Below are positions 31,418-55,754 of a stretch of DNA of 64,000 nucleotides, in pieces. Below the pieces are notes generated by a model, which was not told the DNA's origin, did no database searches, and worked only from the letters and a program-made list of their open reading frames with translations. Positions within the stretch are counted from its first letter, which is position 1. Each line of letters opens with the position of its first letter. The DNA is from Pseudomonas sp. HS6. Its GTDB lineage: Bacteria > Pseudomonadota > Gammaproteobacteria > Pseudomonadales > Pseudomonadaceae. Location of the stretch: positions 6,014,001 to 6,078,000 of the forward strand of contig NZ_CP067412.1 in NCBI RefSeq assembly GCF_023375815.1, read 5' to 3'. Both the position numbers and the translations under genes were made by a program.

Positions 31418-31460
31418 TGTTGTCTCCAATCTTGAATTTGTTAGGGAGTACGGTTGCGGC

Positions 31461-33073: not shown

Positions 33074-33085
33074 ATTGTCGACACC
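33074..33085 (-). promoter_or_regulatory. Half-degenerate operator overlapping the regulator's RBS
   Basis: ATTGTCGACACC contains the 8-bp palindrome TGTCGACA immediately before the GntR start codon and partly covers its ribosome-binding site. It resembles the full operator at 33147-33158. Confidence 0.5.
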
Positions 33086-33146
33086 TTTAAATCCAATGCG
33101 GCAAAAACTAGCGAATCAGCCCGCACCAGTCAAAGGATAAATGGAT

Positions 33147-33158
33147 ATTGTCGACAAT
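33147..33158. promoter_or_regulatory. GntR operator of the prp operon
   Basis: ATTGTCGACAAT is a perfect 12-bp palindrome of the type bound by FadR-subfamily GntR proteins. It lies 74 bases upstream of the regulator gene in the region shared with the divergent protease gene. Confidence 0.65.
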
Positions 33159-33368
33159 CGTCTAATAACCCCCAGCATCAACCCCAAGGGTTATAGACCG
33201 GCTCGGGCGCTGGCGCCATAAAACCACCGTGCTAGAATGCCGCCCGCATTTGCGAGTCATTTGCACGGCTTGTCATAAAAAGCTGATAGGCACACGAAGG
33301 CGCGCGCAGACAGGATCTCCTGATGCCGTGGCCCTGAACCGAGAACGGACCGCTGCTCGCCAGGATTT

Positions 33369-33905: not shown

Positions 33906-33910
33906 TTTCC

Positions 33911-36432: not shown

Positions 36433-36453
36433 AAAGCTTAGAAGCTAAAAGCT

Positions 36454-36645
36454 CCCTCACCCTAGCCCTCCCGAAACGTCGGACCGCCCGGAGGGAGAGG
36501 GGACTGACCGAGTTGGATGTTCACGCTCCATCGACCTGACATTCCGGAGTCGAACTCAGGACTTGAAAAGCCCCCGATCTGCTTCCTTTCCCGCTCGCCC
36601 CCTTGGGGGAGAGGGATGGGCGGGCGGCGTGCCGATGAGGGGGGC
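36454..36645. repeat. Large palindromic intergenic repeat, copy C
   Basis: It shares outer arms with copies A and B (CCCTCACCCTAGCCCTCCCG at 36454 and GGGAGAGGGATGGGCGGGCG near 36605), but the inner stem is degenerate. It fills the gap between the ATP-grasp gene and pabB. Confidence 0.7.
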
Positions 36646-36716
36646 TTTTGACTTTGATCTGGCATCGGAGAGGACTACAATCCCCACCCCGCCTCAATGG
36701 CCGATCTGCCCCGCCC

Positions 36717-38060: not shown

Positions 38061-38067
38061 CGCTTGC

Positions 38068-38091
38068 GGCGAGGGCGTTTGCGCCCTCGCC
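38068..38091. terminator. Hairpin between convergent pabB and thrH
   Basis: A 9-bp perfect GC stem, GGCGAGGGC / GCCCTCGCC, with a six-base loop lies between the convergent genes. It lacks a T run, so its termination strength is uncertain. Confidence 0.55.
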
Positions 38092-38101
38092 ACAGCATGA
38101 C

Positions 38102-38719
38102 TTACAGGCTCAAATCGCGGTTTGAAGCCTTGAGAAACTCCTGCTTCAACTCACCAAAGCTGTGCACTGCCGGGAACTGCGGGAATTCCCGAATCACGTT
38201 ATCCGGCGCATGGAACAGAATCCCCGCATCCGCTTCACCCAGCATGCTGGTGTCGTTGTAGGAATCCCCTGCCGCAATCACCCGGTAATACAGGCTCTTG
38301 AAGGCCAGGACCGACTGACGTTTCGGATCTTTCTGACGCAACTGATAGCTCGTGACCCGCCCGCTCTCGTCAGTAATCAGACGATGGCAGAGCAACGTCG
38401 GAAAGCCCAGTTGACGCATCAGCGGCTGGGAAAATTCGTAGAAGGTATCCGACAGAATCACCACCTGAAACCGCTCGCGCAGCCAGTTGACGAACTCCAC
38501 TGCGCCGTCCAGCGGCTTGAGGGTCGCGATCACTTCCTGAATGTCCGACAGCTTGAGGCCATGCTCGTCAAGGATGCGCAGGCGCTGCTTCATCAGCACG
38601 TCATAGTCGGGAATGTCCCGAGTGGTGGCCTTGAGCGATTCGATTCCGGTTTTTTCAGCGAAGGCGATCCAGATTTCCGGTACCAGCACCCCTTCAAGAT
38701 CAAGACAGGCAATTTCCAC
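38102..38719 (-). CDS. thrH: Phosphoserine phosphatase/homoserine phosphotransferase ThrH
   Basis: The 205-residue HAD-superfamily protein has DLEGVLVPE at the N-terminus (nucleophile Asp7) and GDSYNDTSML near residue 150. ThrH dephosphorylates phosphoserine and can move phosphate to homoserine. The gene order pabB-thrH-cysH is shared with P. aeruginosa. The start is ATG 38719 with GGAGTGTCCTGTG upstream. Confidence 0.93.
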   Translation of the reverse strand: MEIACLDLEGVLVPEIWIAFAEKTGIESLKATTRDIPDYDVLMKQRLRILDEHGLKLSDIQEVIATLKPLDGAVEFVNWLRERFQVVILSDTFYEFSQPLMRQLGFPTLLCHRLITDESGRVTSYQLRQKDPKRQSVLAFKSLYYRVIAAGDSYNDTSMLGEADAGILFHAPDNVIREFPQFPAVHSFGELKQEFLKASNRDLSL

Positions 38720-38881
38720 AGGACACTCCGTTTGTAATGTTTATTGAGTCGAGCGAGCCCGAACTCTAGCGGCTCGTTCCGGGCCACGCAACGCAGAGGG
38801 CACCCCGGCGGGCGTTGCTTTTTGTTAACATCGCCGCCATATAGAGCGCCCAGCGCCACCGACCTGTAGGAAGCCGCCCTG

Positions 38882-39616
38882 ATGAGCCCAACGTTCGACG
38901 TCGTGGAACTCGCCACGACCTATGCCAACAAATCCGCGCAGGACATCCTCAAGCTCGCGTTCGCCGAGTTCGGCGATGATCTGTGGATATCTTTCAGCGG
39001 CGCCGAGGATGTGGTGCTGGTGGACATGGCCTGGAAGCTGAACAAGAACGTCAAGGTGTTCAGTCTCGACACCGGCCGCCTGCACCCGGAAACCTACCGA
39101 TTCATCGATCAGGTGCGCGAGCACTACAAGATCGACATCGAACTGGTCTCGCCGGACTACACGAAACTCGAACCGTTCGTGAAGGAAAAAGGCCTGTTCA
39201 GTTTCTACAAGGACGGCCATGGCGAGTGCTGCGGCATCCGCAAGATCGAACCGCTGCGCCGCAAACTGTCCGGCGTCAAAGCCTGGGCCACCGGCCAGCG
39301 TCGCGACCAGAGCCCTGGCACCCGCAGCGCGGTCGCGGTAATGGAAATCGACAGCGCGTTCTCCACTCCAGAGCGCACCCTGTACAAGTTCAACCCGCTG
39401 GCGCAGATGACCAGCGAGGAGATCTGGGGCTACATCCGCATGCTGGAGCTGCCGTACAACTCCCTGCATGAGCGCGGTTTCATCAGCATCGGCTGTGAAC
39501 CGTGCACCCGCCCCGTGCTGCCGAACCAACACGAACGCGAAGGTCGCTGGTGGTGGGAAGAAGCGACCCAGAAAGAATGCGGGTTGCATGCCGGGAATAT
39601 CATCAGCAAGGCGTAA
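38882..39616 (+). CDS. cysH: Adenosine 5'-phosphosulfate reductase (APS reductase)
   Basis: The 244-residue enzyme reduces APS to sulfite in sulfate assimilation. It has the [12 protein letters not shown]-loop and the four-cysteine [4Fe-4S] set (CC near 119-120 and CEPC near 207), which marks the APS-type rather than PAPS-type reductase. The C-terminal ECGLH catalytic cysteine is present. It diverges from thrH. Confidence 0.95.
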
Positions 39617-39884
39617 ACCGTTCGACCCGCAGTTGACTCTGCCAGACATGAAAAATGTGTACACACGAATGTCACCATCGGTGCCATTTATGTGTGCACT
39701 TTTCATTTCTGCGCCCTGAAAAGTTACATCCCGCTGCCAAAGCGATCCCTTCCGGCGTCCGCCAAAATCCCTTCCGAAAAATAAATACCTGTTCAAACGG
39801 TCAATTTATATCGCCTGCATTTCAGCGACTTAGCGCACTTCAATAACTTTTCGAAATCAGTGGTGATTTTCATAGATCGCTGAC

Positions 39885-39900
39885 TGGCACAGATCTGGCT
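39885..39900 (+). promoter_or_regulatory. Possible sigma-54 promoter of the NCS1 permease
   Basis: TGGCACAGATCTGGCT has GG (39886-39887) and GC (39898-39899) ten bases apart, fitting RpoN -24/-12, though the -12 box is imperfect. Nitrogen control would suit a purine- or hydantoin-type permease. Confidence 0.45.
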
Positions 39901-39913
39901 TAAGTGCATACAT

Positions 39914-39929
39914 GTTTTGTATACAAAAC
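39914..39929. promoter_or_regulatory. 16-bp perfect palindrome, GntR-type operator
   Basis: GTTTTGTATACAAAAC is a perfect palindrome placed at the expected transcription start of the permease gene. TTGTATACAA-like sites are typical of GntR/FadR-family repressors. No such regulator gene lies beside it. Confidence 0.6.
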
Positions 39930-40095
39930 TGCAGAACATGAACCCACACTTTCGATCCGCAAGCCTGAAGCGCCCTATCCCGTACAGGCTGCAGATGCCC
40001 CGTAACCAGTGATGTTTCACCGCCGCGACGAAGATCTGCCGAGCCTGAGCGCTCATGCACAGTCATCGCGGCCCGAACATCAGGAGCCTGCCGGA

Positions 40096-41640
40096 ATGCG
40101 TACGAGTCTCTCGAACAACAACATCGCGCTGAATCTGCCCTCCTCCTCAACCCTCGATCACACCGTGCCCGGTGACAGCATCGCCGAACCGCTGCAACTG
40201 AGTCCGCGCTTGCACAACCGCGATCTCGCGCCGACCAAGGCCGAGGGTCGGCGTTGGGGCCGCTACAGCATCTTTGCCCTGTGGACCAACGATGTGCACA
40301 ACATCGCCAACTACTCGTTTGCCATCGGCCTGTACGCCCTGGGTCTGGGCGGCTGGCAGATTCTGCTGTCACTTGGGATCGGCGCAGCGCTGGTGTATTT
40401 CTTCATGAACCTCTCGGGCTACATGGGGCAGAAAACCGGGGTACCGTTTCCGGTCATCAGCCGGATCAGTTTCGGCATTCACGGGGCGCAGATTCCTGCG
40501 TTGATCCGGGCAATTATCGCCATCGCCTGGTTCGGGATTCAGACGTACCTGGCGTCGGTGGTGTTTCGCGTGTTGCTCACGGCAGTTCACCCCGGTTTCG
40601 CCGACTACGACCACAACTCGATCCTCGGCCTGTCGAGCCTGGGTTGGGTGTGTTTCGTGGCAATCTGGTTCGTGCAGTTGGGGATCCTGGCCTACGGCAT
40701 GGAAATGGTCCGCCGCTACGAAGCGTTCGCCGGGCCGGTGATTCTGCTGACCGTCGCCTGCCTCGCCGCCTGGATGTACACCCAGGCCAACGCGACCATT
40801 GCCTGGTCGATCCGCGAACCGCTGACCGGCGGCGAGATGTGGCGCAACATTTTTGCCGGCGGCGCCTTGTGGCTGGCGATCTACGGCACGCTGATCCTCA
40901 ACTTTTGCGACTTCGCCCGTTCTTCACCGTGCCGCAAAACCATCAAGGTCGGAAACTTCTGGGGCCTGCCGGTGAATATTCTGGTGTTCGCCGGGATCAC
41001 CGTCCTGCTATGCGGTGCGCAATTTCAGATCAACGGCCGGATCATCGAAAGCCCGACCGAAATCATCGCGTCGATCCCCAACACCTTTTTTCTGGTGCTC
41101 GGCTGCCTGGCGTTCCTGATCGTCACCGTGGCGGTAAACATCATGGCCAACTTCGTCGCCCCGGCCTTTGTGCTGAGTAACCTGGCGCCGAAGTACCTGA
41201 CCTTCCGCCGCGCCGGGCTGATCAGCGCCACCATCGCCGTGCTGATCCTGCCGTGGAATCTCTACAACAGTCCGCTGGTGATCGTGTATTTCCTGTCCGG
41301 CCTCGGCGCCCTGCTCGGCCCGTTGTACGGCGTGATCATGGTCGACTACTGGCTGATCCGCAAAGGCCGGATCCACGTGCCGCAACTGTACAGCGAAGAC
41401 CCGAATGGCGCGTATTTCTACAGCCGTGGGGTCAACCTGCGGGCAGTGGCGGCGTTCATTCCGGCCGCGCTGATCGCCATCGTCCTGGCACTGGTGCCGG
41501 GCTTCCACAGCGTTTCGCCCTTCTCCTGGCTGATTGGTGCCGGCATTGCCGGGATGCTCTACCTGATCATCGCCAAACGCCAGCCGCACTACGCCGATGT
41601 GGACGGTGAAGCCATCGCCGTCGACAACGTCAGCCACTGA
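40096..41640 (+). CDS. NCS1-family nucleobase/hydantoin/allantoin permease
   Basis: The 514-residue protein has 12 predicted membrane helices and the NCS1 pattern (LWTNDVHNIANYSFAIGLY near the N-terminus; NFCDFARSSPCRK near the middle). It should import a nucleobase, allantoin or hydantoin with a cation. ATG 40096 follows AGGAGC. The next gene encodes a racemase-family enzyme, so the substrate is probably a ring amide such as allantoin or hydantoin (inference). Confidence 0.88.
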   Translation: MRTSLSNNNIALNLPSSSTLDHTVPGDSIAEPLQLSPRLHNRDLAPTKAEGRRWGRYSIFALWTNDVHNIANYSFAIGLYALGLGGWQILLSLGIGAALVYFFMNLSGYMGQKTGVPFPVISRISFGIHGAQIPALIRAIIAIAWFGIQTYLASVVFRVLLTAVHPGFADYDHNSILGLSSLGWVCFVAIWFVQLGILAYGMEMVRRYEAFAGPVILLTVACLAAWMYTQANATIAWSIREPLTGGEMWRNIFAGGALWLAIYGTLILNFCDFARSSPCRKTIKVGNFWGLPVNILVFAGITVLLCGAQFQINGRIIESPTEIIASIPNTFFLVLGCLAFLIVTVAVNIMANFVAPAFVLSNLAPKYLTFRRAGLISATIAVLILPWNLYNSPLVIVYFLSGLGALLGPLYGVIMVDYWLIRKGRIHVPQLYSEDPNGAYFYSRGVNLRAVAAFIPAALIAIVLALVPGFHSVSPFSWLIGAGIAGMLYLIIAKRQPHYADVDGEAIAVDNVSH

Positions 41641-41694
41641 ATCTTTTGGCGGCCCTTCGCGGGGCCGCAGAACCAACCGTAATAAGGACTTCCC

Positions 41695-42423
41695 ATGCGC
41701 ATTCTCGTGGTCAACGTCAACACCACCGAATCCATCACCCATGCCATCGCCCGCTCGGCGCAGTCTGTGGCTTCCCCCGGCACCGAGATCGTCGGCCTGA
41801 CGCCGTACTTCGGCGCCGATTCGGTGGAAGGCAATTTCGAAAGTTACCTGGCCGCCATCGCCGTGATGGACCGGGTGATGTCCTACGACCAGCCCTTCGA
41901 CGCGGTGATCCAGGCCGGCTACGGCGAACACGGCCGTGAAGGTTTGCAGGAGTTGCTCAACGTACCGGTGGTGGACATCACCGATGCGGCCGCCAGCACC
42001 GCGATGTTTCTGGGCCACGCTTATTCAGTGGTCACCACCCTGGATCGCACCGTGCCGCTGATTGAGGATCGTCTGAAACTCTCCGGCCTGTGGGATCGCT
42101 GCGCCTCGGTGCGCGCCAGTGGTCTGGCAGTGCTTGAGCTGGAACACGAACCGCAACGGGCGCTGGAAGCGATCGTGCATCAGGCTGAACTGGCGGTGAC
42201 TCAGGACAAAGCCGAGGTGATCTGCCTCGGTTGCGGGGGCATGGCCGGGCTCGACGAGAAGATCCGTCAGCGTACCGGGGTGCCGGTGATCGATGGCGTC
42301 ACCGCCGCTGTGACCATCGCCGAATCGCTGGTTCGACTGGGGCTGTCGACGTCCAAGGTGCGGACGTATGCGACGCCACGGCCGAAGACCATCATCGGCT
42401 GGCCAGCACGTTTTGCGCGTTGA
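41695..42423 (+). CDS. Asp/Glu/hydantoin racemase-family protein
   Basis: The 242-residue protein has the hydantoin/allantoin racemase fold. The second catalytic cysteine is present in CLGCGGMAG (C180), but the first is replaced: the site reads QAGYGEHG with Gly75. Two-cysteine racemases need both; arylmalonate decarboxylase is a family member with glycine at the first site. The exact reaction is therefore open. It lies 54 bases after the permease and overlaps the convergent lysR end by 32 bases. Confidence 0.82.
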   Translation: MRILVVNVNTTESITHAIARSAQSVASPGTEIVGLTPYFGADSVEGNFESYLAAIAVMDRVMSYDQPFDAVIQAGYGEHGREGLQELLNVPVVDITDAAASTAMFLGHAYSVVTTLDRTVPLIEDRLKLSGLWDRCASVRASGLAVLELEHEPQRALEAIVHQAELAVTQDKAEVICLGCGGMAGLDEKIRQRTGVPVIDGVTAAVTIAESLVRLGLSTSKVRTYATPRPKTIIGWPARFAR

Positions 42424-43458: not shown

Positions 43459-44205
43459 ATGACCACTCAACACCTCAGCGGTAAAGTCGCTCTGATTCAA
43501 GGCGGCTCTCGCGGCATCGGTGCCGCCATCGTCAAACGCCTGGCCGCTGAAGGCGCCGCGGTTGCCTTTACCTACGTCAGCTCGGCCGCCAAGGCTGAAG
43601 AACTGCAAAACAGCATCACCGCGAACGGCGGCAAAGCCCTGGCGATCAAGGCTGACAGCGCTGACGCCAGCGCCATTCGCAACGCGGTGAACGCAACGGT
43701 CGAAACCTTTGGCCGCCTCGACATTCTGGTCAACAACGCCGGTGTGCTGGCCGTCGCCCCGCTGGAAGACTTCAAACTGGAAGACTTCGACCAGACCCTG
43801 GCGATCAACGTGCGCAGCGTGTTCATCGCCAGCCAGGAAGCCGCCAAACACATGGGCGAAGGCTCGCGCATCATCAACATCGGCAGCACCAACGCCGACC
43901 GCATGCCCTTCGCCGGTGGCGGCGTGTATGCGATGAGCAAATCCGCGCTGGTTGGCCTGACCAAAGGCCTGGCTCGCGACCTCGGCCCACGCGGCATCAC
44001 CATCAACAACGTGCAGCCCGGCCCGGTCGATACCGACATGAACCCGGCCCACGGTGAGTTCGCCGACAGCCTGATCCCGCTGATGGCAGTGGGTCGCTAC
44101 GGCAAAGCCGAGGAAATCGCCAGCTTCGTCGCCTACCTCGCCAGCCCGGAGGCCGGTTACATCACCGGTGCCAGCCTGACCATCGACGGTGGTTTCGGCG
44201 CCTGA
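43459..44205 (+). CDS. Short-chain dehydrogenase/reductase
   Basis: The 248-residue classical SDR has the nucleotide loop GGSRGIGAAIV (about 14-24), LVNNAG (near 90) and a catalytic Ser with YAMSK (Tyr and Lys near 155-159). It is an NAD(P)-linked oxidoreductase of 3-oxoacyl-ACP-reductase-like type; the substrate is unknown. GGAGATCG precedes ATG 43459. It is probably regulated by the divergent LysR protein. Confidence 0.88.
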   Translation: MTTQHLSGKVALIQGGSRGIGAAIVKRLAAEGAAVAFTYVSSAAKAEELQNSITANGGKALAIKADSADASAIRNAVNATVETFGRLDILVNNAGVLAVAPLEDFKLEDFDQTLAINVRSVFIASQEAAKHMGEGSRIINIGSTNADRMPFAGGGVYAMSKSALVGLTKGLARDLGPRGITINNVQPGPVDTDMNPAHGEFADSLIPLMAVGRYGKAEEIASFVAYLASPEAGYITGASLTIDGGFGA

Positions 44206-44228
44206 TTGAACTGATTGTAGAAAACGAA

Positions 44229-44268
44229 AAACGCCGCCCCTCCTTTAACAGAGGGGCGGCGTTTTTTT
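44229..44268. terminator. Bidirectional terminator between SDR and HAD genes
   Basis: A 12-bp perfect stem (ACGCCGCCCCTC / GAGGGGCGGCGT) with a seven- to eight-base loop, T7 on the plus side and A run on the other, serves both convergent genes. Confidence 0.92.
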
Positions 44269-44281
44269 GTCTGCGGTTTGA

Positions 44282-44977
44282 TCAGGCCCAATCCAGTGCC
44301 GGCAAACCACATGCACTCGGCGTGAACGCTTTCAACGTACGAAGAATCCCGTCAGCGTGTGCGTATTTTTCATCGGCCATGGCGGCATCAGGGATCGCGA
44401 TGGCCGTCATGCCGGCTGCTTTCGCGGCTGTCACGCCGAATGGCGAATCTTCGAACACCAGGCAATCTTCCGGCGCCACACCCAGGCGGCGCGCGGCGGT
44501 GAGGAAAATGTCCGGCGCAGGCTTGGCAGCGCCGACTTCTGGATCATCAGCCGTGACGATGAAGTCGAACAATGCAAACCAGTCGCGGTGCAAGGTGGTT
44601 TTCTGACCGAACGACTGGCGCGATGAACTGGTGCCAACGGCAATCGGAATGTTGTGCGCCTTGAGATGGCGGATCAGTTCCTCGGCGCCCGGCATGGCTT
44701 GCGCAGTGGGAAAACGCTCGCGCATCAGCGGTTCACGGATCACCAGAAACTCTTCGGCGGTGATCGGCAGGTCCAGCGCTTCGACCACGTAGCGCGCCAG
44801 ATCGCCAGCACCACGGCCGATGATGTTCTGCTTGATGCTCCAGTCGAAGGTGCGCCCGTAACGCTCGGCAATCAGCGAGGTGACCTCGGTGTAGATGCCC
44901 TCGGTGTCCAGCAGCAAACCGTCCATATCGAAAATCACGGCCTTGATCGGGCCGAACGCCTTCAGCGGTGCATTCAT
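44282..44977 (-). CDS. HAD-superfamily phosphatase (beta-phosphoglucomutase-like)
   Basis: The 231-residue HAD subfamily IA protein has DMDGLLLDTE (nucleophile Asp near 15), GTSSSRQ and the C-terminal EDSPFG motif. It is probably a sugar-phosphate phosphatase (2-deoxyglucose-6-phosphate phosphatase-like). I chose ATG 44977; ATG 44980 and 45001 are in frame. Rhs starts divergently 250 bases away, with no other gene between them. Confidence 0.85.
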   Translation of the reverse strand: MNAPLKAFGPIKAVIFDMDGLLLDTEGIYTEVTSLIAERYGRTFDWSIKQNIIGRGAGDLARYVVEALDLPITAEEFLVIREPLMRERFPTAQAMPGAEELIRHLKAHNIPIAVGTSSSRQSFGQKTTLHRDWFALFDFIVTADDPEVGAAKPAPDIFLTAARRLGVAPEDCLVFEDSPFGVTAAKAAGMTAIAIPDAAMADEKYAHADGILRTLKAFTPSACGLPALDWA

Positions 44978-45227
44978 CATCGGATCCGTTATCAAAGACA
45001 TCCCAGGCGGCGTCGGGTAGCACCGCTGCTCGGATCTGATTAAAGGGTTCAGCAGCATAACGAGCGCGGCCGAGGTTGAGCAACGGGCAATGTCGGTTGT
45101 CCGCCGAACGTTGCCAGGCACATTTAGAGAATTGCCCTACAGACACCGCCCACTTGCCTGACTTCTTTCCTGTTTGATCCCCCGCACAGTTTCGCGCCAT
45201 TCCCTTGATGCGCGCGAGTGACTGCGA

Positions 45228-47267
45228 ATGCTTCCATCTGACCCTCTCCTGAAACTGAACAACAGCATCGGTTTGCTGGTGGTGGCTGCGCTGAATCCTG
45301 ATCAGCCTGACGCCGAAAAGCTGTTTCAGGAATTTCGCCTCTGCCTCAACGACTATGAAAGCTGGGCCGAGCAGTTCTGGACGGGAACGGCGCTGGACGT
45401 CGATCAGGTGTTCAAGGTCGGCAACGATGTCCAGCTCAGTGCGCTTGCTGGCAGTCGAAAACCCGTCAGTACTTCCGTAGTCATGTGCCCCACCACCGGG
45501 CCGCTGACACTGGTGCACATGTTCGAAGCCGCGCGCTTCGTGCCGATCGGCGATACGCCAGTGACTCTGGAAGCGGTCATTTCCGATGTCGGCGGTGTCC
45601 TGGAATTCGGCGAACCGCTGCATTTCACCATTGGCCCCAGCGGCATTCTCGAGGTCGACGATTGCGACCGGGGCCAGCGTTATCGCATCACCTTCTTTCC
45701 CGATGTTTCCAGTTCACATGTCCAGACGCTGTACGCCTCGTATCAGAGCCTGATCGATGGTCTCGAAGGCTGGCTGCGTGAGGAATGGGAAGGCTTTCAG
45801 CCGCAGTGGGCGGAGTTTTCCAGCGCAGGCTTCAGCGAGCGTTACGGTCAGTTGCAACAGGCTGACTGGCGCGGTTTCGAAACGGCCCTGAACGGCGTCT
45901 GGGATGACGTGAAGCAACTGTTCGCCCTGCTCGCCGACTGGCAGGTCAACAGCGAAAAACTTCTGCAGTACCTGTCCGCCGCTGAGCTGGAAGCGTTGCT
46001 CAAGGCTTCCACCGAGGCCATCGCCAATGGCTTGCTGATGCTCAGCGACGAGCCGTTGCTGTTTATTCATCTGGCGGCCTTCACCAGTTGGCTGAAGATG
46101 CTGCCGCCGCAGTACCTGGCCGAGGTGGTGGCTGAAGTCCGGGTCGAATTACTGATCGGTTTCCTGTTGATGCGCGTGTCGGCGGGCATGGGTGTGCCGC
46201 TGCGGTTGAGCGCCAAGGTGCTCGCCAAGGTCAAGTCCCCGCGTGCCCGGGAATGGTTGGCGGCGTCGGCGTTGCGGTTGGCAGAGCTGACTTCGGCACC
46301 CGATCTGACCCGGCATGCCGGTGCGTTGAAGCCGTTGATGGTCAATGCGCGGCAGGCGCCGTTGCGGCCGACACCAGCCATTCCGTTGGAGATTCGCACG
46401 GCCGATTCGCAGGTACTGACGGTGCCCAATCCGGCGGCCATTGCGCGTAACAAGTCCCAGGGCTCGACGCGAATGGAGCGGCATGAGCCTCGCGACGACA
46501 AGCCTGATCAGGCGAAAAACCCCAACGGTGACAGCGCCGATTGTGCACCGCTGACCTGCACCAATGGCTGTCCGGTGTCGATGGTCACTGGCGAAGAACT
46601 GCTGACGCTGACCGATGGCGTACTTGATGGACTGCTGTCGTTCGAGTTCAGTCGGTTGTACCGCACCAGCGCGGCGGAAATCGATGTCGGGTTGGGGTTT
46701 GGCTGGAGTCATTCGCTGGCGCATCGGCTGGAGGTTGATGGCGACGGGGTGGTCTGGGTTGACCATGAGAACCGGCGCACGCGGTTTCCGTCGCCCAGCG
46801 GCGAGCGGCCGGCGATTCACAACAGTTTGTCGCGGGCGGCGATTTTTCTTGGAGATGAGCCGGAGGAGTTGATTGTTGCGCTGGCGGGTGAGGCGGCGCG
46901 GTTTTATCACTTTCGGGCTGGGCGTCTGACGCTCATTAGCGATGCGTACGGCAACCGGCTGCGTATTACGCGGGATCGTCAGGATCGGGTTGAGCGGCTG
47001 GATAACGGCGTCGGTCGTTCGCTGTTGCTGCGCTATGAGCGGGCGCATCTGGTCGCGGTCGATTATCAGGTTTTTTGTGAGTCAGTCTGGCGCACCGAGC
47101 AGACGCTGGTCAGCTACCGCTTTGATGCCCGCCATCGACTGATCGAGGCGACCAACGCCGTCGGCGAAAGCGAGCGTTACGATTACGACGACCAGCACGT
47201 CATCCTGCAGCGGCAGTTAACGGGCGGCGCGAGTTTCTTCTGGGAGTGGGAGCGTACCGGCAAAGCC
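45228..47267 (+). CDS. Rhs-family protein, 5' part only (truncated)
   Basis: About 680 codons encode the N-terminal part of an Rhs protein: a helical N-terminal region (about 1-390), then a CX3C/DUF6531-type segment (PLTCTNGCPVSMVTGEE) and the start of the YD-repeat shell (LFRSHH-like LYRTSAAEID, GWSHSLAHRLE, and YDYDDQHVIL). At 47267, within a GGASFFWEWERTGKA segment that normally runs on, the sequence joins lapA-like DNA in reverse orientation. The frame stays open to 49229, but those 650 codons are antisense to the adhesin. The toxin tip and any immunity gene are absent. A Rhs protein normally has about 1,400 residues. Confidence 0.75.
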
Positions 47268-49226
47268 ATTGCCGCCGCTCACGCCAGTGATCGAGTTGGT
47301 CAGTGGCTCGTGACCGTTCAACGCATCGTTCGGCGCGGTGGTGGTGACGGTGCCAGTGGTTTTACCGACTTCGATGGTGATGGTCTGGCCGTTGGCCAAA
47401 GTGACGGTGACCGGCGAACCGGTCACTGGCGCGCCCACAGTAGCGGTATAAGTGACAGTACCGCCTTCAGCCGCCGACTCGGTCGCGGTCAGTTTGACCG
47501 TGGTCGTATCGATGGTGTCGGTGACTTCGGTGACGGCTGGGACGGTGCTCGGCACCAGGTTCTCGAAGTTGCCGCCAGTGGTGCCGGTAATGCTGACTTC
47601 AACTTTGCCCGCATCCTTGTAAACGTCATCGGCTGGCGCCGGAACGGTCACGCTGCCGGTGGTTTTGCCAGCCTCGATGGTGATGACGGAGCCGTTGCTC
47701 AACGTCACGGTCACCGGGGTGCCGGCCGGGTTGGTCAATGTAGCGGTGTAAACGATCGAGCCACCCTCGGCCACGGAACCGGTAGCGGACAGGGACAGGT
47801 TGGTGGTGTCGATGGAGTCAGTGACCGTGGTGGTCGCCGGCGTCGTGTTCGGTACCAGATTCTCGAAGTTGCCGCCGGTAGCGCCGGTAATGGTAGTGCT
47901 GACGGTGCCGCCATTGTTGTAGACGTCATTCGGCGCGGTCGGCACGTTGACGCTGCCGGTGGTTTTGCCGGCTTCGATGGTGATGGTCGAGCCGTTGGAC
48001 AGGGTGACGGTCACCGGCGTCTGCGCCGGGTTGGTCAGCGTCGCGGTGTAGGTGATCTGGCCGCCTTCAACCACGTTGCCCGTAGCGGTCAGGGTCAAAC
48101 CGGTGGTGTCTTTCGAGTCGACAATCGTGGTGACAGCCGGCGTCGGGTTCGGCACCAGGTTTTCGAAGTTGCCGCCGGTGGCGCCGGTGATCGTGGTAGT
48201 GACGGTGCTGCCGTTGTTATAGACGTCATTCGGCGCGGTCGGCACGTTGACGGTGCCGGTGGTCTGGCCGGCGCCGATGGTGATGGTCGAGCCGTTGGAC
48301 AGGGTGACGGTGACCGGCGTCTGTGCCGGGTTGGTCAGCGTGGCTGTGTAGGTGATCTGGCCACCTTCGGTGACGCTGTTGCCCGCCGTCAGCGTGACGG
48401 TGGTGGTGTCGATGGTGTCGGTGACCTGGGTCACGGCAGGGGTGGTCGGCACAGTGACGGTAATGCCATTGCCACCGGTGGTGCCGGTGACAGTCACGTT
48501 GATCTGGGTCGGGTCGTTGTAGACCGTGTCGTTCGGTGCCAGTGGCACGTTGACGGTGCCGGTGGTGGAGCCTGCCGGAATCACGATCACCGAGCCGTTG
48601 GACAAGGTGATGGTCAAGTCGGTCAGCGGCGCCTGGGTCAGGGTCGCGGTGTACACCAGCACGCCGCCGGCTTCGGTGATGGTCGGCGTGGCGCTGAGGC
48701 TCAGGCTCGAGTCGCGCAGTGCATTGGCGTTAGTGTCGGTGTTCTGGCCACCGGTGAAGTTCTGGGCGGCCTGGCCGGCGGAGTTGATGCCCGCAGTCGG
48801 GAAGCCGATGGTCGGGTCGACACGGCCTGCTGTCGCGTCGAGCATCACGAAACTGTGACCGCCCCCGGCGGCACCGCCAGTGCCTGCGGCGCTCGGGCCG
48901 GCAGCGGTGGCTTCAAGAGCGGTGGTCGGGTCAGCGCCAGCGGCGATGGCTTGTTGCAGTTCTTCAACAGACGGCGCGGCTTGCGCAGTGGCTTCGGCCA
49001 GATCGGTGCTGGAGTCCGGGGTGCTGGCGCTCCACTGTGTGTCGCGACCCAGATCCAGGGTGCGGCCATCGGCCAGTTCCAGGGACACCGCGCCAGCGAC
49101 GCCGGTGTCGACCTGATCGCCGACGAACAAGCGGTCGCCTTCTACAAGTACACGACGGACGCCCTCTGGGGACACCACGAAAACCTGACCGACAATGCTT
49201 TTGACGATGGCAACAACACTGCTCAT
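47217..49226 (-). CDS. LapA/MapA-type adhesin N-terminus, truncated
   Basis: The 669-residue open frame begins with the retention module of LapA-type adhesins (residues 1-110) and a LapG cleavage site TAAG at 107-110. Five Ser/Thr/Val-rich repeats of about 100 residues follow (300-base period, with matching blocks near 47511, 47810, 48112 and 48408). Authentic adhesin sequence ends near 47268; the last 16 codons are reverse-strand Rhs sequence. The whole repeat tract, von Willebrand/RTX region and C-terminal secretion signal are missing. ATG 49226 follows GGAGAGTCTTCA. LapA versus MapA cannot be decided here. It is divergent from the secretion genes. Confidence 0.8.
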   Translation of the reverse strand: MSSVVAIVKSIVGQVFVVSPEGVRRVLVEGDRLFVGDQVDTGVAGAVSLELADGRTLDLGRDTQWSASTPDSSTDLAEATAQAAPSVEELQQAIAAGADPTTALEATAAGPSAAGTGGAAGGGHSFVMLDATAGRVDPTIGFPTAGINSAGQAAQNFTGGQNTDTNANALRDSSLSLSATPTITEAGGVLVYTATLTQAPLTDLTITLSNGSVIVIPAGSTTGTVNVPLAPNDTVYNDPTQINVTVTGTTGGNGITVTVPTTPAVTQVTDTIDTTTVTLTAGNSVTEGGQITYTATLTNPAQTPVTVTLSNGSTITIGAGQTTGTVNVPTAPNDVYNNGSTVTTTITGATGGNFENLVPNPTPAVTTIVDSKDTTGLTLTATGNVVEGGQITYTATLTNPAQTPVTVTLSNGSTITIEAGKTTGSVNVPTAPNDVYNNGGTVSTTITGATGGNFENLVPNTTPATTTVTDSIDTTNLSLSATGSVAEGGSIVYTATLTNPAGTPVTVTLSNGSVITIEAGKTTGSVTVPAPADDVYKDAGKVEVSITGTTGGNFENLVPSTVPAVTEVTDTIDTTTVKLTATESAAEGGTVTYTATVGAPVTGSPVTVTLANGQTITIEVGKTTGTVTTTAPNDALNGHEPLTNSITGVSGGNGFAGTLPLPEETRAAR

Positions 49227-49586
49227 TGAAGACTCTCCGGGTGTCACGTTCAGTTGACTTCCATAGACCTGATGGCTTTTCTGCGCCGATTCAGTCTGGA
49301 CGTACTTTTAAAAAAATGTGAATCAAGTTTGACGCTGATTTGTGTCAATATTTTGGCTAGAATCTTTCGCTATTAACTTTATGCCAAACTATTGACCTTA
49401 TGGATGCCATCCTAAACAATCGCCCCACTAATGTCACATTGATATTTACGCGGCGACTTGCCCTTGAGCATGTGATCCAGTTCCGGTTTTAAACTTTCCG
49501 ACATACGGTCATTCCGGTTGCCATCATCCGACGCAGCACCCTTATTTGCTGTGATTCACGACAAGAAGTTCTGGGAATTCCTTACC
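49227..49586. promoter_or_regulatory. AT-rich divergent promoter region of adhesin and secretion genes
   Basis: The 360-base gap between the adhesin and the outer-membrane factor gene is clearly AT-rich (for example 49300-49400) and codes for nothing obvious. It should hold promoters in both directions. I could not fix a -35/-10 pair with good spacing. Confidence 0.5.
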
Positions 49587-50939
49587 ATGCGTTCGCCCCT
49601 GTTCAAGGCTCTACCTTTCGCACTCGCCGCGTCTTTTGCTCAAGCACAATCCTTACCGGAAGCCATGCAACAGGCACTGGATGTCCATCCGGAAATCCAG
49701 GCAGGGGTCAACAGTCGATTGGCTGCGGATTATCAGTTAAAGGCTGCCAAAGGTGGATACCTGCCGAAGGTCGATCTGCTCGGCGGTTATGGCCGTGAAG
49801 GCACCGACAGCGTTACTACCCGCGCCAACGGCGGCGGCAATCACTGGGAAACCCTGAACCGCTCCGAGTCGAGTCTGCGCCTGTCGCAAATGGTTTTTGA
49901 CGGTTTTGCGACGTCCAGCGAAGTCGGGCGTCAACAAGCCACCGTCAACTCTCGCGCCTATTCCTTGCTTGGTACTTCGGAGCGCACCGCGCTGACCGTG
50001 GCTCAGGTTTATCTGGATGTGCTGACCCGTCGCGAATTCGTGCGCCTGGCCGACGAGAACCTCAAGAGCCACCAGCGCATCTATGACCAGATCCAGTTGC
50101 GCACCCAGCGCGGCGTCGGCAGCGGTGCGGACCTCGACCAGGCCGAAGCGCGGATGGCCCAGGCCCGCAACAACCTGATCACCGAGCAGACCAATCTCGC
50201 CGACTCGGAAACCAACTTCCTCAGCGCTGTCGGCCAGATGCCCGATCAGTTGGAGCGTCCGGCACCGTTCATGGCGATGATGCCGGCCAACCTCAACGAA
50301 GCGCGCACGCAGATGCTGGAAAACAGCCCGATCCTGCGCTCGGCCGAGTCCGATATCGCCGCAGCCGAGAAGCAGTACGAAACCGCCAAGTCGACCTTCT
50401 ACCCACGCTTCGACGCCGAGCTGGGCCGCACCGCCGACAACGACCTCGACGGCCAGAACGGTCACAACAATGAATGGCAGGCGATGTTGCGCATGCGCTT
50501 CAACCTGTACTCCGGCGGCAGCAACAAGGCTGATCTGGAATCCAAGTCCTACCTGTCGAACCAGGCACTGGACATCCGCAACAACGCCCTGCGTCAGTTG
50601 AATGAAGAACTGGGCCTGGCCTGGAACGCCCTGAACAACGCCAACGCCCAGGTGCCGATCGCTCAGCAGTACGTTGATCACAGCACCGCAGTGCGCACCG
50701 CTTACCAGCGTCAGTTCAGCCTCGGCGAACGAACCCTGCTGGATTTGCTCGACAGTGAAAACGAACTGTTCACCGCTTCGCGCCGTCTGGCCGAGATCAA
50801 AAACATTCAGTTATTTACTCAGTATCGAATCAAGGCGACCATGGGCGAGTTGCTCAAGAGCCAGGGAGTGGTCGCACCGATGGCATCCGTTGTGCAGAAC
50901 GACGTGAAGCCCAAGGTCCAACTGCCCGGGATGAATTGA
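49587..50939 (+). CDS. TolC-family outer membrane factor (LapE/MapE type)
   Basis: The 450-residue protein has a signal peptide (MRSPLFKALPFALAASFAQA) and the two TolC halves with long helices (about 20-230 and 235-430). It would form the outer-membrane channel for adhesin export with the next two gene products. ATG 49587 is preferred to the upstream in-frame start because it begins the signal peptide. The genes form an operon: ABC transporter 34 bases after, then adaptor. Confidence 0.9.
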   Translation: MRSPLFKALPFALAASFAQAQSLPEAMQQALDVHPEIQAGVNSRLAADYQLKAAKGGYLPKVDLLGGYGREGTDSVTTRANGGGNHWETLNRSESSLRLSQMVFDGFATSSEVGRQQATVNSRAYSLLGTSERTALTVAQVYLDVLTRREFVRLADENLKSHQRIYDQIQLRTQRGVGSGADLDQAEARMAQARNNLITEQTNLADSETNFLSAVGQMPDQLERPAPFMAMMPANLNEARTQMLENSPILRSAESDIAAAEKQYETAKSTFYPRFDAELGRTADNDLDGQNGHNNEWQAMLRMRFNLYSGGSNKADLESKSYLSNQALDIRNNALRQLNEELGLAWNALNNANAQVPIAQQYVDHSTAVRTAYQRQFSLGERTLLDLLDSENELFTASRRLAEIKNIQLFTQYRIKATMGELLKSQGVVAPMASVVQNDVKPKVQLPGMN

Positions 50940-50973
50940 GTTGTCCCTTTTCAACTGTTAAAGAGTGTCGAGC

Positions 50974-53130
50974 GTGGAATCAGAAGTCAGTCGAGTTCAT
51001 CTCAGTCATGATCCACGCGCGTTGCACGACGATCCGTTACTGGATGGTCTGCTCGCCCTTTGCATGCTGCACCAGAAACCCGCCAGCGCGGCGATGCTGA
51101 CCACCGGTCTGCCGCTGCCCAAGCAACGCCTGAGTGTCGAGCTGCTGCCCCGTGCGGCGGCGCGCGCCGGGCTGCAGGGGCGGGTGCTGCAACGCAAGCT
51201 GGAAGAGATTCCCGCCATCGCCATGCCGGCGCTGTTGCTGCTCAAGGATGGCCGCAGCGCTGTCCTGCTCGGCTGGCAGGGTGAGAACGAAGCCCGGGTG
51301 CTGCTCAGCGAAAGCGACGGCGGCGAGTCCCTCGTCAACCGTGAGCTGCTGAACGACGATTACCTCGGCAAAGTGTTCTTCGCCCAACCCCAACACAAAT
51401 TCGACGTCAACCACGGCACGCTGATTCCGCGCGCCCGCTCGTGGTTCCGCGACACCCTCAAGCGTTCGCGCTGGCTGTACGTTGACGCCATCGCCGCCAG
51501 TTTCCTGATCAACATCATCGCCATGGCCGCGCCGCTGTTCGTGATGAACGTCTACGATCGCGTAGTGCCGAACCAGGCCGAAGCGACCCTGTGGGTCCTC
51601 GCGCTGGGCATCACCGGCGCCTACATCTTCGACCTGATCCTCAAGAGCCTGCGCAGCCTGTGCCTGGATCTGGCGGGCAAGAAAACCGACCTGATCATCT
51701 CCGCCACGCTGTTCGAACGTATCGTCGGCATGGCCATGAAGTACCGGCCGGCGCGGGTCGGCAGCTTTGCCCAGAACATCCACGAGTTTCAAAGCCTGCG
51801 CGACTTCCTCGCCTCGCTGACCCTGACCAGCCTGATCGACCTGCCGTTCACCATTTTGATCTTCATCGTCATCGCCATTCTCGGCGGGCATCTGGTGTGG
51901 ATTCCGGTGCTGGCCTTCCCGATTGCGCTGCTGATCGGCTACGCACTGCAAAAGCCGCTGGTGGCAACCATGGAACGCACCATGGCGCTGGGTGCCGAGC
52001 GTCAATCGAGCCTGATCGAAACCCTCGCCGGCCTCGACGCGGTGAAGGTCAACAACGCCGAAAGCGAACGCCAGTACCAGTGGGAACAAACCATCGGCAC
52101 CCTCAGCCGCCTCGAACTGCGGGTGAAAATGCTCTCCGGCCTGGCGATGAACATCACCCTGCTGATCCAGCAACTGGCCGGTGTGATCATGATCGTCTTT
52201 GGCGTGTACCAGATCATCGCCGGCAACCTGAGCATGGGCGGTCTGATTGCCTGCTACATGCTCAGTGGCCGCGCACTGAGCCCGCTGGCGTCACTGTCCG
52301 GTCTGCTGACCCGTTATCAGCAGGCGCGGGTGACCATGACCTCGGTCGACCAGATGATGGAGCTGCCGCAAGAGCGCAATTTCGAAGAGCGCCCGCTGAG
52401 CCGCAAGGTCCTGCAAGGCGCCATCGAATGCCGTCAGCTCAACTTCACCTACCCGGATCAACAGAACCCGGCGTTGAAGAACATCAACCTGGTGATCCGT
52501 CCCGGAGAGAAGATCGGCATCATCGGCCGCAGTGGTTCGGGCAAGAGCTCGCTGGCCAAACTGCTGGTCGGCCTGTATCAGCCGGACGACGGCGCGCTGC
52601 TGGTGGACGGCGTCGACATCCGTCAGATCGACGTCAGCGAGCTGCGCTACAACATCGGCTACGTGCCCCAGGACATCCAGTTGCTGGCCGGCACTCTGCG
52701 CGACAACCTGATTTCCGGCGCTCGTTACGTCGAGGACGAACTGGTGCTGCAAGCCGCCGAACTGGCCGGCGTGCATGAATTCGCCCGCCTACATCCGCAG
52801 GGTTATGAACTGCAAGTCGGCGAGCGCGGACAGAACCTGTCCGGCGGCCAGCGGCAGAACGTCGCCCTGGCCCGGGCGCTATTGCTCAATCCGCCGATCC
52901 TGCTTCTCGACGAACCGACCAGTGCCATGGACAACACCGGCGAAGAACGCCTCAAGCAACGCCTGGCTGCAGTCGTTGAAAACAAAACCGTGGTGCTGGT
53001 GACGCACCGGGCATCGCTGCTGTCGCTGGTGGATCGTCTGCTGGTGATCGACCGCGGGCAGATTCTCGCCGATGGCCCGAAAGCCGCCGTGATGGAAGCG
53101 TTGAAGAAGGGGCAGATCAGTGTTGCTTAA
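50974..53130 (+). CDS. Type I secretion ABC transporter (LapB/MapB type)
   Basis: The 718-residue protein has a C39-peptidase-like domain without catalytic function (about 20-135), six membrane helices (about 165-440) and an ATPase (Walker A GRSGSGKSSLAK near 514, signature LSGGQRQNVALARALL near 623, Walker B ILLLDEPTSAMD). It drives adhesin export across the inner membrane. I chose GTG 50974 because AAAGAG at 50960-50965 gives good spacing; GTG 50965 overlaps that site. Confidence 0.92.
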   Translation: MESEVSRVHLSHDPRALHDDPLLDGLLALCMLHQKPASAAMLTTGLPLPKQRLSVELLPRAAARAGLQGRVLQRKLEEIPAIAMPALLLLKDGRSAVLLGWQGENEARVLLSESDGGESLVNRELLNDDYLGKVFFAQPQHKFDVNHGTLIPRARSWFRDTLKRSRWLYVDAIAASFLINIIAMAAPLFVMNVYDRVVPNQAEATLWVLALGITGAYIFDLILKSLRSLCLDLAGKKTDLIISATLFERIVGMAMKYRPARVGSFAQNIHEFQSLRDFLASLTLTSLIDLPFTILIFIVIAILGGHLVWIPVLAFPIALLIGYALQKPLVATMERTMALGAERQSSLIETLAGLDAVKVNNAESERQYQWEQTIGTLSRLELRVKMLSGLAMNITLLIQQLAGVIMIVFGVYQIIAGNLSMGGLIACYMLSGRALSPLASLSGLLTRYQQARVTMTSVDQMMELPQERNFEERPLSRKVLQGAIECRQLNFTYPDQQNPALKNINLVIRPGEKIGIIGRSGSGKSSLAKLLVGLYQPDDGALLVDGVDIRQIDVSELRYNIGYVPQDIQLLAGTLRDNLISGARYVEDELVLQAAELAGVHEFARLHPQGYELQVGERGQNLSGGQRQNVALARALLLNPPILLLDEPTSAMDNTGEERLKQRLAAVVENKTVVLVTHRASLLSLVDRLLVIDRGQILADGPKAAVMEALKKGQISVA

Positions 53131-54487
53131 GTCGGGTTTCAAGGATTCGATCCGTCGCTACTTCAAGGGCTCTGCCTCGTTGCAGGGCCAGCCGCTGCCA
53201 GAGGTCAACAAGGCCTTGATCGAGGATGCGCCACGCGTGGTGCGCCTGACGATCTGGGCAATCATCGGTTTCTTCGTGTTCCTGATGCTGTGGGCAAACT
53301 TCGCCGTGATCGATGAAGTGACCAAGGGCGACGGCAAGGCGATTCCCTCGTCGAAGATCCAGAAAATCCAGAACCTCGAGGGCGGGATCGTCTCCGAGCT
53401 GTTCGTCAAGGAAGGCCAGATCGTCGAGGCCGGCGCACCGTTGATTCGCCTGGATGACACGCGATTCGCTTCCAACGTCGGCGAAACCGAAGCGGATCGC
53501 TTGTCGATGCTGCTGCGGGTCGAGCGCCTGAGCGCCGAGGTCGATGACCGGCCGCTGAATTTCCCCGAGGACGTGCTCAAAGCCGTGCCGGGTCAGGCCA
53601 AGAGTGAAGAGTCGCTGTACGTCAGCCGTCGCCAGCAATTGCATGATGAAGTTGGCGGCTTGCAGGAACAATTGATCCAGCGCCAGCAAGAGTTGCGCGA
53701 GTTCACCTCGAAGCAGGCACAGTACCGCCAGCAACTCGGCCTGCAACGCCAGGAAATCAACATGTCTGAGCCGCTGGTGGCCCAGGGCGCGGTGTCGCCG
53801 GTGGAAGTGCTGCGGCTCAAACGTGCGGAAGTGGAAACCCGTGGTCAGCTTGATGCCACCACGCTGGCGATCCCGCGTGCCGAATCGGCGATCAAGGAAG
53901 TACAACGCAAGATCGACGAAACTCGCGGCAAATTCCGCAGCGAAGCTCTGACCCAGCTCAATGAGGCCCGCACCGACCTGAACAAGGCCCAGGCCACCGG
54001 CAAGGCGCTGGAAGACCGGGTCAGCCGTACGCTCGTCACTTCGCCGGTGCGGGGCATCGTCAACAAGATGCTGGTCAACACCATCGGCGGCGTGATTCAG
54101 CCGGGCAGCGATTTGCTGGAAATCGTGCCGCTGGACGACACCCTGCTGGTCGAAGCGAAGATCCGTCCGCAGGACATCGCGTTCCTGCATCCGGGCCAGG
54201 AAGCCACGGTGAAATTCACCGCGTATGACTACACCATCTACGGTGGCCTGAAGGCCAAGCTGGAACAGATCGGCGCCGACACCATCACCGACGAAGACAA
54301 GAAAACCACCTACTACATCATCAAGCTGCGCACTGATCGCAGTCACCTCGGCACAGATGAGAAGCCGTTGCTGATCATCCCGGGGATGGTGGCATCGGTG
54401 GACATCATCACCGGCAAGAAAACGGTGCTGAGCTACCTGCTCAAACCGATCATCCGGGCGCGGGCCGAGGCGTTGCACGAGCGCTAG
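53120..54487 (+). CDS. HlyD-family type I secretion adaptor (LapC/MapC type)
   Basis: The 455-residue protein has an N-terminal membrane helix (about 40-62), a lipoyl-like half near 75-110, a long coiled coil (about 150-300) and a C-terminal beta-barrel domain (about 310-440). It links the ABC transporter with the TolC-type channel. It starts GTG 53120 inside the end of the ABC gene (11-base overlap). No lapD or lapG gene follows. Confidence 0.92.
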   Translation: MLLKSGFKDSIRRYFKGSASLQGQPLPEVNKALIEDAPRVVRLTIWAIIGFFVFLMLWANFAVIDEVTKGDGKAIPSSKIQKIQNLEGGIVSELFVKEGQIVEAGAPLIRLDDTRFASNVGETEADRLSMLLRVERLSAEVDDRPLNFPEDVLKAVPGQAKSEESLYVSRRQQLHDEVGGLQEQLIQRQQELREFTSKQAQYRQQLGLQRQEINMSEPLVAQGAVSPVEVLRLKRAEVETRGQLDATTLAIPRAESAIKEVQRKIDETRGKFRSEALTQLNEARTDLNKAQATGKALEDRVSRTLVTSPVRGIVNKMLVNTIGGVIQPGSDLLEIVPLDDTLLVEAKIRPQDIAFLHPGQEATVKFTAYDYTIYGGLKAKLEQIGADTITDEDKKTTYYIIKLRTDRSHLGTDEKPLLIIPGMVASVDIITGKKTVLSYLLKPIIRARAEALHER

Positions 54488-54510
54488 ATCTTCATTGGCC
54501 TGACTGGCCC

Positions 54511-54603
54511 CATCGCGGGCAAGCCCGCTCCCACAGGGATCTCGATGGGAACACGATTGTGTGTTCGCAGTGGAGTCTGTGGGAGCTGGCTTGCCAGCGA
54601 TAG
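54511..54603. repeat. REP doublet downstream of the secretion genes
   Basis: A CATCGCGGGCAAGCCCGCTC unit and a later inverted CTGTGGGAGCTGGCTTGCCA unit are separated by about 45 bases, the usual REPIN arrangement in P. fluorescens. Confidence 0.82.
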
Positions 54604-54699
54604 CTTCAGTTTGAACACCACATCCCTGTCAGTAAGTGACACAAATGGTCACTCACCATCCAGTCCATTCCTAAACAATCGCCATATCGTTATTCGTTA

Positions 54700-54735
54700 A
54701 CAGTATTTAAATTCCGCTTCTTATAGCTATAAAGT
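54700..54735 (+). promoter_or_regulatory. AT-rich promoter element upstream of tauD-like gene
   Basis: The 370-base gap between lapC and the dioxygenase gene contains the REP doublet and, at 54690-54735, an AT-rich stretch with the palindrome TTATAGCTATAA (54721-54732). Similar stretches precede sulfonate-utilization genes controlled by CysB in Pseudomonas; that link is inference here. Confidence 0.4.
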
Positions 54736-54857
54736 CAGCCTCCTGCGTACCTGCCGACCAATCGGCGCGCCGCACGACACGAACCCACACGCAATCCAGC
54801 GTGAGTTTCAGATCGACGCGCGCGCCCTTGAGCGTGCCGTGCGTGGGAGATTGATTG

Positions 54858-55754
54858 ATGTCCGCAGCTACTGCTACCTCAAGCGCCGCGACTGTCGCGC
54901 CGCAAACCTTCGAGATCCGCCCGTTCAGCGGTGCCGTCGGCGCCGAAATCATCGGCCTCGACCTGACAGGTCCGGTCAACGAAGAGGATTTCGCCCGCAT
55001 CCACCGCGCGCACCTCGATCACCACGTCGTGGTGTTCCGCGACCAGCGCATCACCCCGCAACAACAGATCGATTTCAGCCGCCGCTTCGGTGTGTTGCAG
55101 ATCCACGTGCTCAAGCAATTCCTGCTAGCGAACCACCCGGAAATCCTCATCGTTTCCAACATCGTCGAAAACGGCCAGAACATTGGCCTCGGTGATGCCG
55201 GCAAATTCTGGCACTCGGACCTTTCCTATAAAGAGCTGCCGAGCCTCGGCTCGATGCTGCACGCCCAGGAGCTGCCGTCCGAAGGTGGCGACACCCTGTT
55301 CGCTGACATGCACAAAGCCTGGGACAGCCTGCCCGACGCGCTGCGCAAAGCCGTCGAAGGCCGCTCGGCTGCGCATTCCTACACCGCGCGCTACAGCGAA
55401 ACCAAATTCGAAGGGAACTGGCGCCCGACCCTGACCCCGGAGCAATTGGCTCAAGTCGCCGAGGTCGTGCACCCGGTTGTTCGCACCCACCCGGAAAACG
55501 GCCGCAAGGCGTTGTTCGTCAGTGAAGGCTTCACCACCCGCATCGTCGGCCTGCCGGAGGACGAGAGCAAGCAACTGCTCGACGAGCTCTACGCCCACAG
55601 CGTGCAGCCGCAGAACATCTATCGCCACCAATGGCAGCCCCACGACCTGGTGTTCTGGGACAACCGTTCGCTGATTCACCTTGCCGCCGGTTGCCCTGCG
55701 CACCTGCGCCGCAAGCTGTATCGCACCACCATCCAGGGCGACGCGCCTTTCTGA
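54858..55754 (+). CDS. TauD/TfdA-family alpha-ketoglutarate dioxygenase
   Basis: The 298-residue Fe(II)/2-oxoglutarate dioxygenase has the ligands H119, D121 (FWHSD) and H274 (SLIHL), with the 2-oxoglutarate-binding arginine near the C-terminus (KLYRTTIQG). It would oxidise a sulfonate, sulfate ester or related compound. The sulfur role is inferred from the ABC genes that follow. ATG 54858 has GGGAGA upstream. Confidence 0.88.
   Translation: MSAATATSSAATVAPQTFEIRPFSGAVGAEIIGLDLTGPVNEEDFARIHRAHLDHHVVVFRDQRITPQQQIDFSRRFGVLQIHVLKQFLLANHPEILIVSNIVENGQNIGLGDAGKFWHSDLSYKELPSLGSMLHAQELPSEGGDTLFADMHKAWDSLPDALRKAVEGRSAAHSYTARYSETKFEGNWRPTLTPEQLAQVAEVVHPVVRTHPENGRKALFVSEGFTTRIVGLPEDESKQLLDELYAHSVQPQNIYRHQWQPHDLVFWDNRSLIHLAAGCPAHLRRKLYRTTIQGDAPF

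Follow-up and report, generated by a model that had tools for sequence, protein, structure and literature searches.

Long repeats defeat assembly in bacterial genomes, as passages of PMC6868369 and PMC6158609 (the latter on P. koreensis P19E3) describe; the former gives a repetitive surface adhesin as an example and states that archival databases do not investigate problems such as misassembly. The described systems closest to the locus treated here are the LapA/LapBCE/LapDG adhesin system, set out in part of PMC7716237, and the Pseudomonas Rhs polymorphic toxin genes. Here, we report the analysis of a 64,000-nucleotide stretch of Pseudomonas sp. HS6 (the window; positions 6014001-6078000 of NZ_CP067412.1, a single contig of 6,547,752 bases), in which the N-terminal half of an Rhs gene is joined tail to tail to the N-terminal part of a LapA-type adhesin gene. 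We find that this join is almost certainly a contig misjoin in the record and not a feature of the organism. In contrast to the cases in those passages of PMC6868369 and PMC6158609, unrelated repeat families here abut in one ungapped record, with leftover fragments as its tail.

The adhesin shares with the LapA/LapBCE/LapDG system, as that part of PMC7716237 presents it, a retention module, LapA repeats and a neighbouring type I exporter; its C-terminal half, elsewhere in the record, lies beside genes that look by eye like lapD and lapG. On these points it differs from that system only in being split by the misjoin. The Rhs part corresponds to the N-terminal half of a Pseudomonas Rhs polymorphic toxin gene, whose frames in relatives run to about 1600 codons; unlike in those genes, its core and C-terminal end sit elsewhere in the record. 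The labels SDR, HAD, CorA, FadB, FadA, lapD, lapG, VgrG and birA, and that of the rpoBC-fusA block, were assigned by eye, and RTX was recognized by eye from its repeats.

Structure of the join

The sequence around the join comprises the following features, in window coordinates:

45228..47266, plus strand: N-terminal 679 codons of the Rhs gene, with DUF6531 and YD repeat; its end is the presumed contig end
47266..47268, no strand: the join, with the last Rhs base at 47266/47267 and the first adhesin base at 47268, blunt and without microhomology
47268..49226, minus strand: N-terminal 652 codons of the LapA-type adhesin, with retention module and first repeats; ATG at 49226
45228..49229, plus strand: spurious open frame of 1333 amino acids over the join, Rhs N-terminus and then antisense adhesin
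47217..49247, minus strand: spurious open frame of 676 amino acids over the join, adhesin N-terminus (ATG at 49226) and then antisense Rhs

Rhs sequence extends to 47266/47267, and antisense LapA-adhesin repeats begin at 47268. The point at which Rhs homology ends ranges over 47262-47267 with the comparison sequence: 47266 against the strain's own second Rhs gene (query position 567), 47263 against relative G016, 47266 and 47262 against G035, 47267 against G019 and 47266 against G011. Adhesin homology runs from 47268 onwards, where the G016 adhesin region (31021-42320) aligns with record positions 6061268-6072552 at 92.6% identity. The join is blunt to within about one base, and the two long frames that cross it are by-products of it.

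Both genes are authentic as far as the join. The Rhs part matches DUF6531 (PF20148, E 1.5e-20) and, weakly, the YD repeat (TIGR01643, E 1.5e-5), both over their cut-offs; PF05593 RHS_repeat falls slightly under its cut-off (20.2 versus 22) and NF041261 RHS_core far under. The adhesin part matches the LapA retention module (NF033682, E 2.4e-41, 141.3 bits versus a cut-off of 50) and carries five stretches of the LapA repeat domain PF20579. At these locations the variable C-terminal Rhs tip with its immunity gene and the C-terminal RTX part and secretion signal of the adhesin are absent. An earlier first-pass annotation, made from the letters of the window, had placed the join at this position, with the plus-strand Rhs frame turning into the reverse complement of adhesin repeats, the adhesin frame from 49226 crossing into Rhs sequence, and both genes genuine up to that point but lacking their C-terminal parts; all of this is borne out here, and counterparts of both C-terminal ends were found elsewhere in the record.

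The same annotation had proposed that CAAAGCC, just before the join, could be common to both ends. These bases are Rhs sequence: the second Rhs gene and the relatives have CAAGGC or similar at this place, and G019 has AAAGCC. In the relatives' adhesins, the bases preceding the sequence matching TTGCCGCC are mostly CGTA or CGAA(G). A scan for the motif TT(A/G)CC(G/A)CC in adhesin regions gave 313 sites in seven relatives and 42 in this genome, some of them outside the repeats, and CAAAGCC directly precedes none of these 355 sites. This result and the blunt join rule out microhomology at CAAAGCC.

The missing parts lie elsewhere in the record

Alignment of the G016 Rhs and adhesin regions with fetched stretches of this record located the remainder of both genes. 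On the Rhs side, the C-terminal end and the native genes that follow it lie at 6385468-6400889 on the minus strand, of which 6396977-6400889 is homologous to the G016 Rhs C-terminal end; pieces of Rhs core lie in the tail of the record, at about 6535 to 6545 kb. The adhesin C-terminal half, on the plus strand, and the native genes beyond it lie at 6470152-6490673, the half itself at 6.470-6.480 Mb, where a frame (6468248-6480001) closes with a C-terminus resembling that of LapA in the relatives; a further 4.1 kb of adhesin repeats sits in the tail (6514180-6518269). Because parts of both genes are thus represented elsewhere in the record, no deletion is shown. From the window, one would expect each of these C-terminal parts on the other strand. 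Because of the similarity among the repeats, the tail pieces are not assigned to individual gene copies.

The displaced parts end at junctions of their own. The Rhs C-terminal end gives way at about 6400890 to the C-terminal part of a MapA-like adhesin; the N-terminal part of this adhesin, next to its own exporter, is cut off by the start of the contig at base 1. At about 6470150 the N-terminal part of an RTX gene abuts the LapA C-terminal half.

The MapA-like adhesin constitutes a second LapA-like N-terminus in this genome (1-7484), with a type I exporter 51-60% identical to that in the window, and a C-terminal part occupies about 6400891-6405921. This adhesin with its exporter is similar to the MapA system as PMC7716237 describes it, where MapA is reported mostly from several subgroups of P. 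fluorescens, P. koreensis among them. The adjoining 6405921-6421372, about 15.4 kb with several large frames, is absent from the collinear G016 region and may be a strain-specific island or a further assembly problem.

Rhs and adhesin genes are separate loci in relatives

The genes that flank the two halves in the window are:

43459-44205, plus strand: SDR-like gene, native left neighbour of Rhs
44282-45121, minus strand: HAD-like gene, native left neighbour of Rhs
49518..50939, plus strand: TolC-like outer-membrane part of the exporter (TIGR01844)
50965..53130, plus strand: type I secretion permease/ATPase of the exporter (TIGR03375, E 2.8e-291)
53120..54487, plus strand: HlyD-family membrane-fusion part of the exporter (TIGR01843, E 1.1e-131)

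The Rhs N-terminal DNA was matched in 19 of 56 relatives searched, and eight of the 19 were then searched for the adhesin exporter. In all eight, Rhs and adhesin/exporter are separate loci: three drafts (G016, G011 and G032) carry them on different contigs, and in the five single-contig genomes a long distance separates them (for example, 2.125 Mb versus 0.175 Mb in G035). No adhesin or exporter was found in the fetched Rhs surroundings, which spanned up to 40 kb (4.5 kb in G032 and 20 kb at a second G019 place). A broader set comprised 80 named Rhs loci, selected from 128, to which several genomes contribute more than one and in which L156 is taken as the second Rhs contig of G016, contig C5 of G016 and the record behind L101 being equal in length and position. 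In none of these 80, 46 of which have at least 8 kb downstream, does the fetched flank hold the adhesin N-terminus or this exporter; the two flank matches are unrelated ABC proteins of 32-33% identity. The comparison with relatives suggested by the first-pass annotation, for sequence lost between neighbouring Rhs and adhesin genes, finds no such neighbours in the genomes compared.

Each half in the window keeps its usual flank. The Rhs part is 87% identical in DNA to the G016 locus, and the SDR-like/HAD-like pair (43459..45121) adjoins Rhs in G005, G011, G016, G019, G032, G033 and one of two G035 copies; it was not found in the fetched G010 region, at the other G035 copy or at the second, partial G019 place. 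On the other side, the type I exporter is complete (49518-54487) beside the adhesin N-terminus, and 49200-55754 is collinear at 88-93% in six of eight relatives, the other two matching over about 5.3 kb at 84-87%. The exporter is a genuine neighbour of the adhesin N-terminus.

Both genes are long single frames where they are intact. Four intact Rhs copies have frames of 1593-1634 codons, stop to stop, and the adhesin frame is unbroken in six of seven fetched relatives (3126, 5331, 5438, 5618, 5718 and 5818 codons, stop to stop) and broken in G005. Nothing novel was found in the Rhs gene itself. A third Rhs gene of this genome (5346982-5351856, minus strand) is one unbroken frame of 1625 codons, and a nearby frame (5352565-5354655) looks like VgrG.

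Break points recur at repeats

The second Rhs gene of this genome loses Rhs homology at 5537914-5537919, about 5 bases or less from the point homologous to 47266. Two Rhs genes broken within about 5 bases of a homologous point would be hard to obtain through independent biological events and would arise easily at a shared-repeat boundary. Contig ends cluster near the homologous point in the related loci: on the Rhs side, 25 of the 80 have one within 1 kb and 34 within 8 kb, compared with 3 and 7 near the start of the Rhs gene. Three drafts have two Rhs genes broken at equal offset (-18/-18 in L102 and L155; 599/599 in L109 and L165; 708/707 in L104 and L168), and in other drafts the two listed Rhs ends differ (for example, 126 in L099 and 711 in L154).

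The tail of the record

The last roughly 34 kb of the record, from 6514180, consists largely of serial fragments of LapA repeats, MapA-like repeats, RTX and Rhs core. For 18 listed pieces, 10 of the 17 intervals between them are within 7 bases, and the pieces shrink from 4.1 kb to about 0.13 kb almost monotonically, the last two (116, then 134) breaking the order. A rank test gives a Spearman coefficient of -0.99, the p-value of which is descriptive only, as the 18 pieces were hand-picked (17 of 26 rows, themselves a non-overlapping selection of matches, and the 5S gene); the nine unranked rows, from 6524240 to 6538814, give match lengths of 893, 821, 693, 487, 666, 650, 1237, 659 and 613 and show no steady fall. 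The tail is not made of repeats alone: 6521541-6524107 carries three tRNAs and about 2 kb of genes that look single-copy. It also holds isolated parts of ribosomal RNA (rRNA) operons:

6518439-6521329: lone 23S rRNA gene
6544580-6544762: tRNA-Ile and tRNA-Ala of the internal transcribed spacer (ITS) type
6547240-6547355, minus strand: lone 5S gene

This 5S gene is the only one in the record, compared with 7, 7, 6 and 7 in four complete relatives. The 16S count (0 in the record) was not used as evidence: the record is partly masked, and the same count gave 0 in the draft G016 as well and only 1 in G019. EF-Tu, an essential protein, is present only as pieces (residues 58-210, 60-211, 247-394, 251-394, 204-257 and 17-60), the last of them at the extreme contig end. 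No intact EF-Tu gene was found in the readable part of the record; G035 and G019 each have two whole copies. The masked part could conceivably hide an intact EF-Tu gene; it would not plausibly hide five or six further 5S genes.

Two of the EF-Tu pieces (58-210 and 60-211) adjoin at 6541489-6542400 in opposite orientation, about 95% identical, and are probably parts of the two tuf genes. A block at 6498304-6514098, read as tRNA-Trp, secE, nusG, rpl, rpoBC, rpsL, rpsG and fusA, opens with an EF-Tu C-terminal piece, and adhesin repeats follow directly after fusA; such bounds are what would be expected if both tuf genes broke the assembly. A falling size order of blocks across the whole record is unsupported, breaks being also suggested near 5105101 (a tuf piece) and at 5537914-5537919; only in the tail do sizes mostly fall.

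Explanations for the join

We propose that one contig would have ended where the Rhs gene enters core sequence common to the strain's Rhs paralogues and another within the tandem repeats of the LapA-type adhesin, and that the two would have been concatenated within a pseudo-chromosome, with no gap marked between them. Other repeats (Rhs, LapA-like and MapA-like adhesins, RTX, tuf and rRNA) would be further break points of this pseudo-chromosome, and its tail would be largely a row of unplaced repeat contigs, apparently leftovers. We infer the contig ends and the concatenation step themselves; that the join is a misjoin is supported by the separate loci in relatives, the missing parts in the same record, the similar junctions, the shared break point, the fragment tail and the blunt join, together with the 5S deficit and an EF-Tu present only in pieces. 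Of the two readings offered by the first-pass annotation, an assembly join between repetitive genes is accordingly strongly supported. The other, a large microhomology-mediated deletion, is not supported, as the parts supposedly lost are represented in the record and microhomology is absent.

Several points weigh against a misjoin. The record, partly masked, forms one contig without gap marks at the joins and is rated 100% complete with 0.26% contamination. The Rhs-adhesin distance varies among relatives, so that megabase-scale rearrangement does happen in the genus. The 80 loci are not independent, several coming from one genome, and the gene-start comparison is a rough control. The Rhs paralogues share 3.1-3.2 kb at 92.6-93.3% (three relatives compared) and are not identical, so why assembly stopped exactly at the Rhs break is something we infer. 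Finally, a graph assembler would leave Rhs contig ends that overlap the next core piece, and the two Rhs N-terminal ends overlap the small core piece that follows by at most 5 bases; a simple graph assembler with retained overlaps is therefore not shown.

The best-surviving rival is a real rearrangement, about 340 kb inverted or something more complex, with breakpoints in Rhs and adhesin that split both genes, and we regard it as very unlikely. In its favour, the displaced C-terminal parts of Rhs and adhesin both lie on the opposite strand, as would result from an inversion. A simple inversion, however, predicts the Rhs C-terminal part beside the adhesin C-terminal part, whereas the junctions seen unite the former with the MapA-like adhesin C-terminal part and the latter with the RTX N-terminal part; a simple 340-kb inversion is rejected on this reciprocal junction. 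Rearrangement would in addition need several coordinated blunt breaks, and it sits poorly with Rhs core and adhesin repeats fragmented in a tail that also holds lone rRNA and EF-Tu pieces. A real multi-break event, in which the Rhs and LapA genes were split and fused tail to tail and the cell kept the exporter with no working adhesin, is slightly less probable still.

Two other readings have next to no probability. A natural mosaic produced by recombination-active Rhs and adhesin cassettes, with the tail pieces as a cassette store, would suit the presence of pieces of four such gene families side by side, and Rhs and adhesin repeats do recombine; but the same tail holds a lone 23S gene, lone ITS tRNAs, a lone 5S gene and EF-Tu pieces, and the readable record has one 5S gene, far below the relatives, and no intact EF-Tu. 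A large deletion at CAAAGCC between neighbouring Rhs and adhesin genes, with both 3′ parts lost, would account for the two truncations and the exporter left beside the adhesin N-terminus, but is equally improbable: the supposedly deleted parts are in the record, none of the 355 motif sites follows CAAAGCC, and none of the relatives checked has the two genes as neighbours, on which ground deletion of a stretch between neighbouring genes is likewise rejected.

Implications

These data indicate that contigs were strung together, wrongly joined within repetitive genes, to give this single-contig record with its rating of 100% completeness. The completeness score missed the problem, which the 5S gene count and the check for an intact EF-Tu exposed. 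Gene order, orientation and apparent loss around the Rhs, LapA, MapA-like, RTX, tuf and rRNA genes of this record are unreliable, as are proteins called across such joins. The first-pass annotation had reasoned that the cell, if the join were real, would lose the adhesin while keeping its exporter; because the join is almost certainly a misjoin and adhesin parts are represented elsewhere in the record, no such loss can be concluded. Most likely, the Rhs gene and the LapA adhesin gene of the cell are both ordinary and occupy separate loci.

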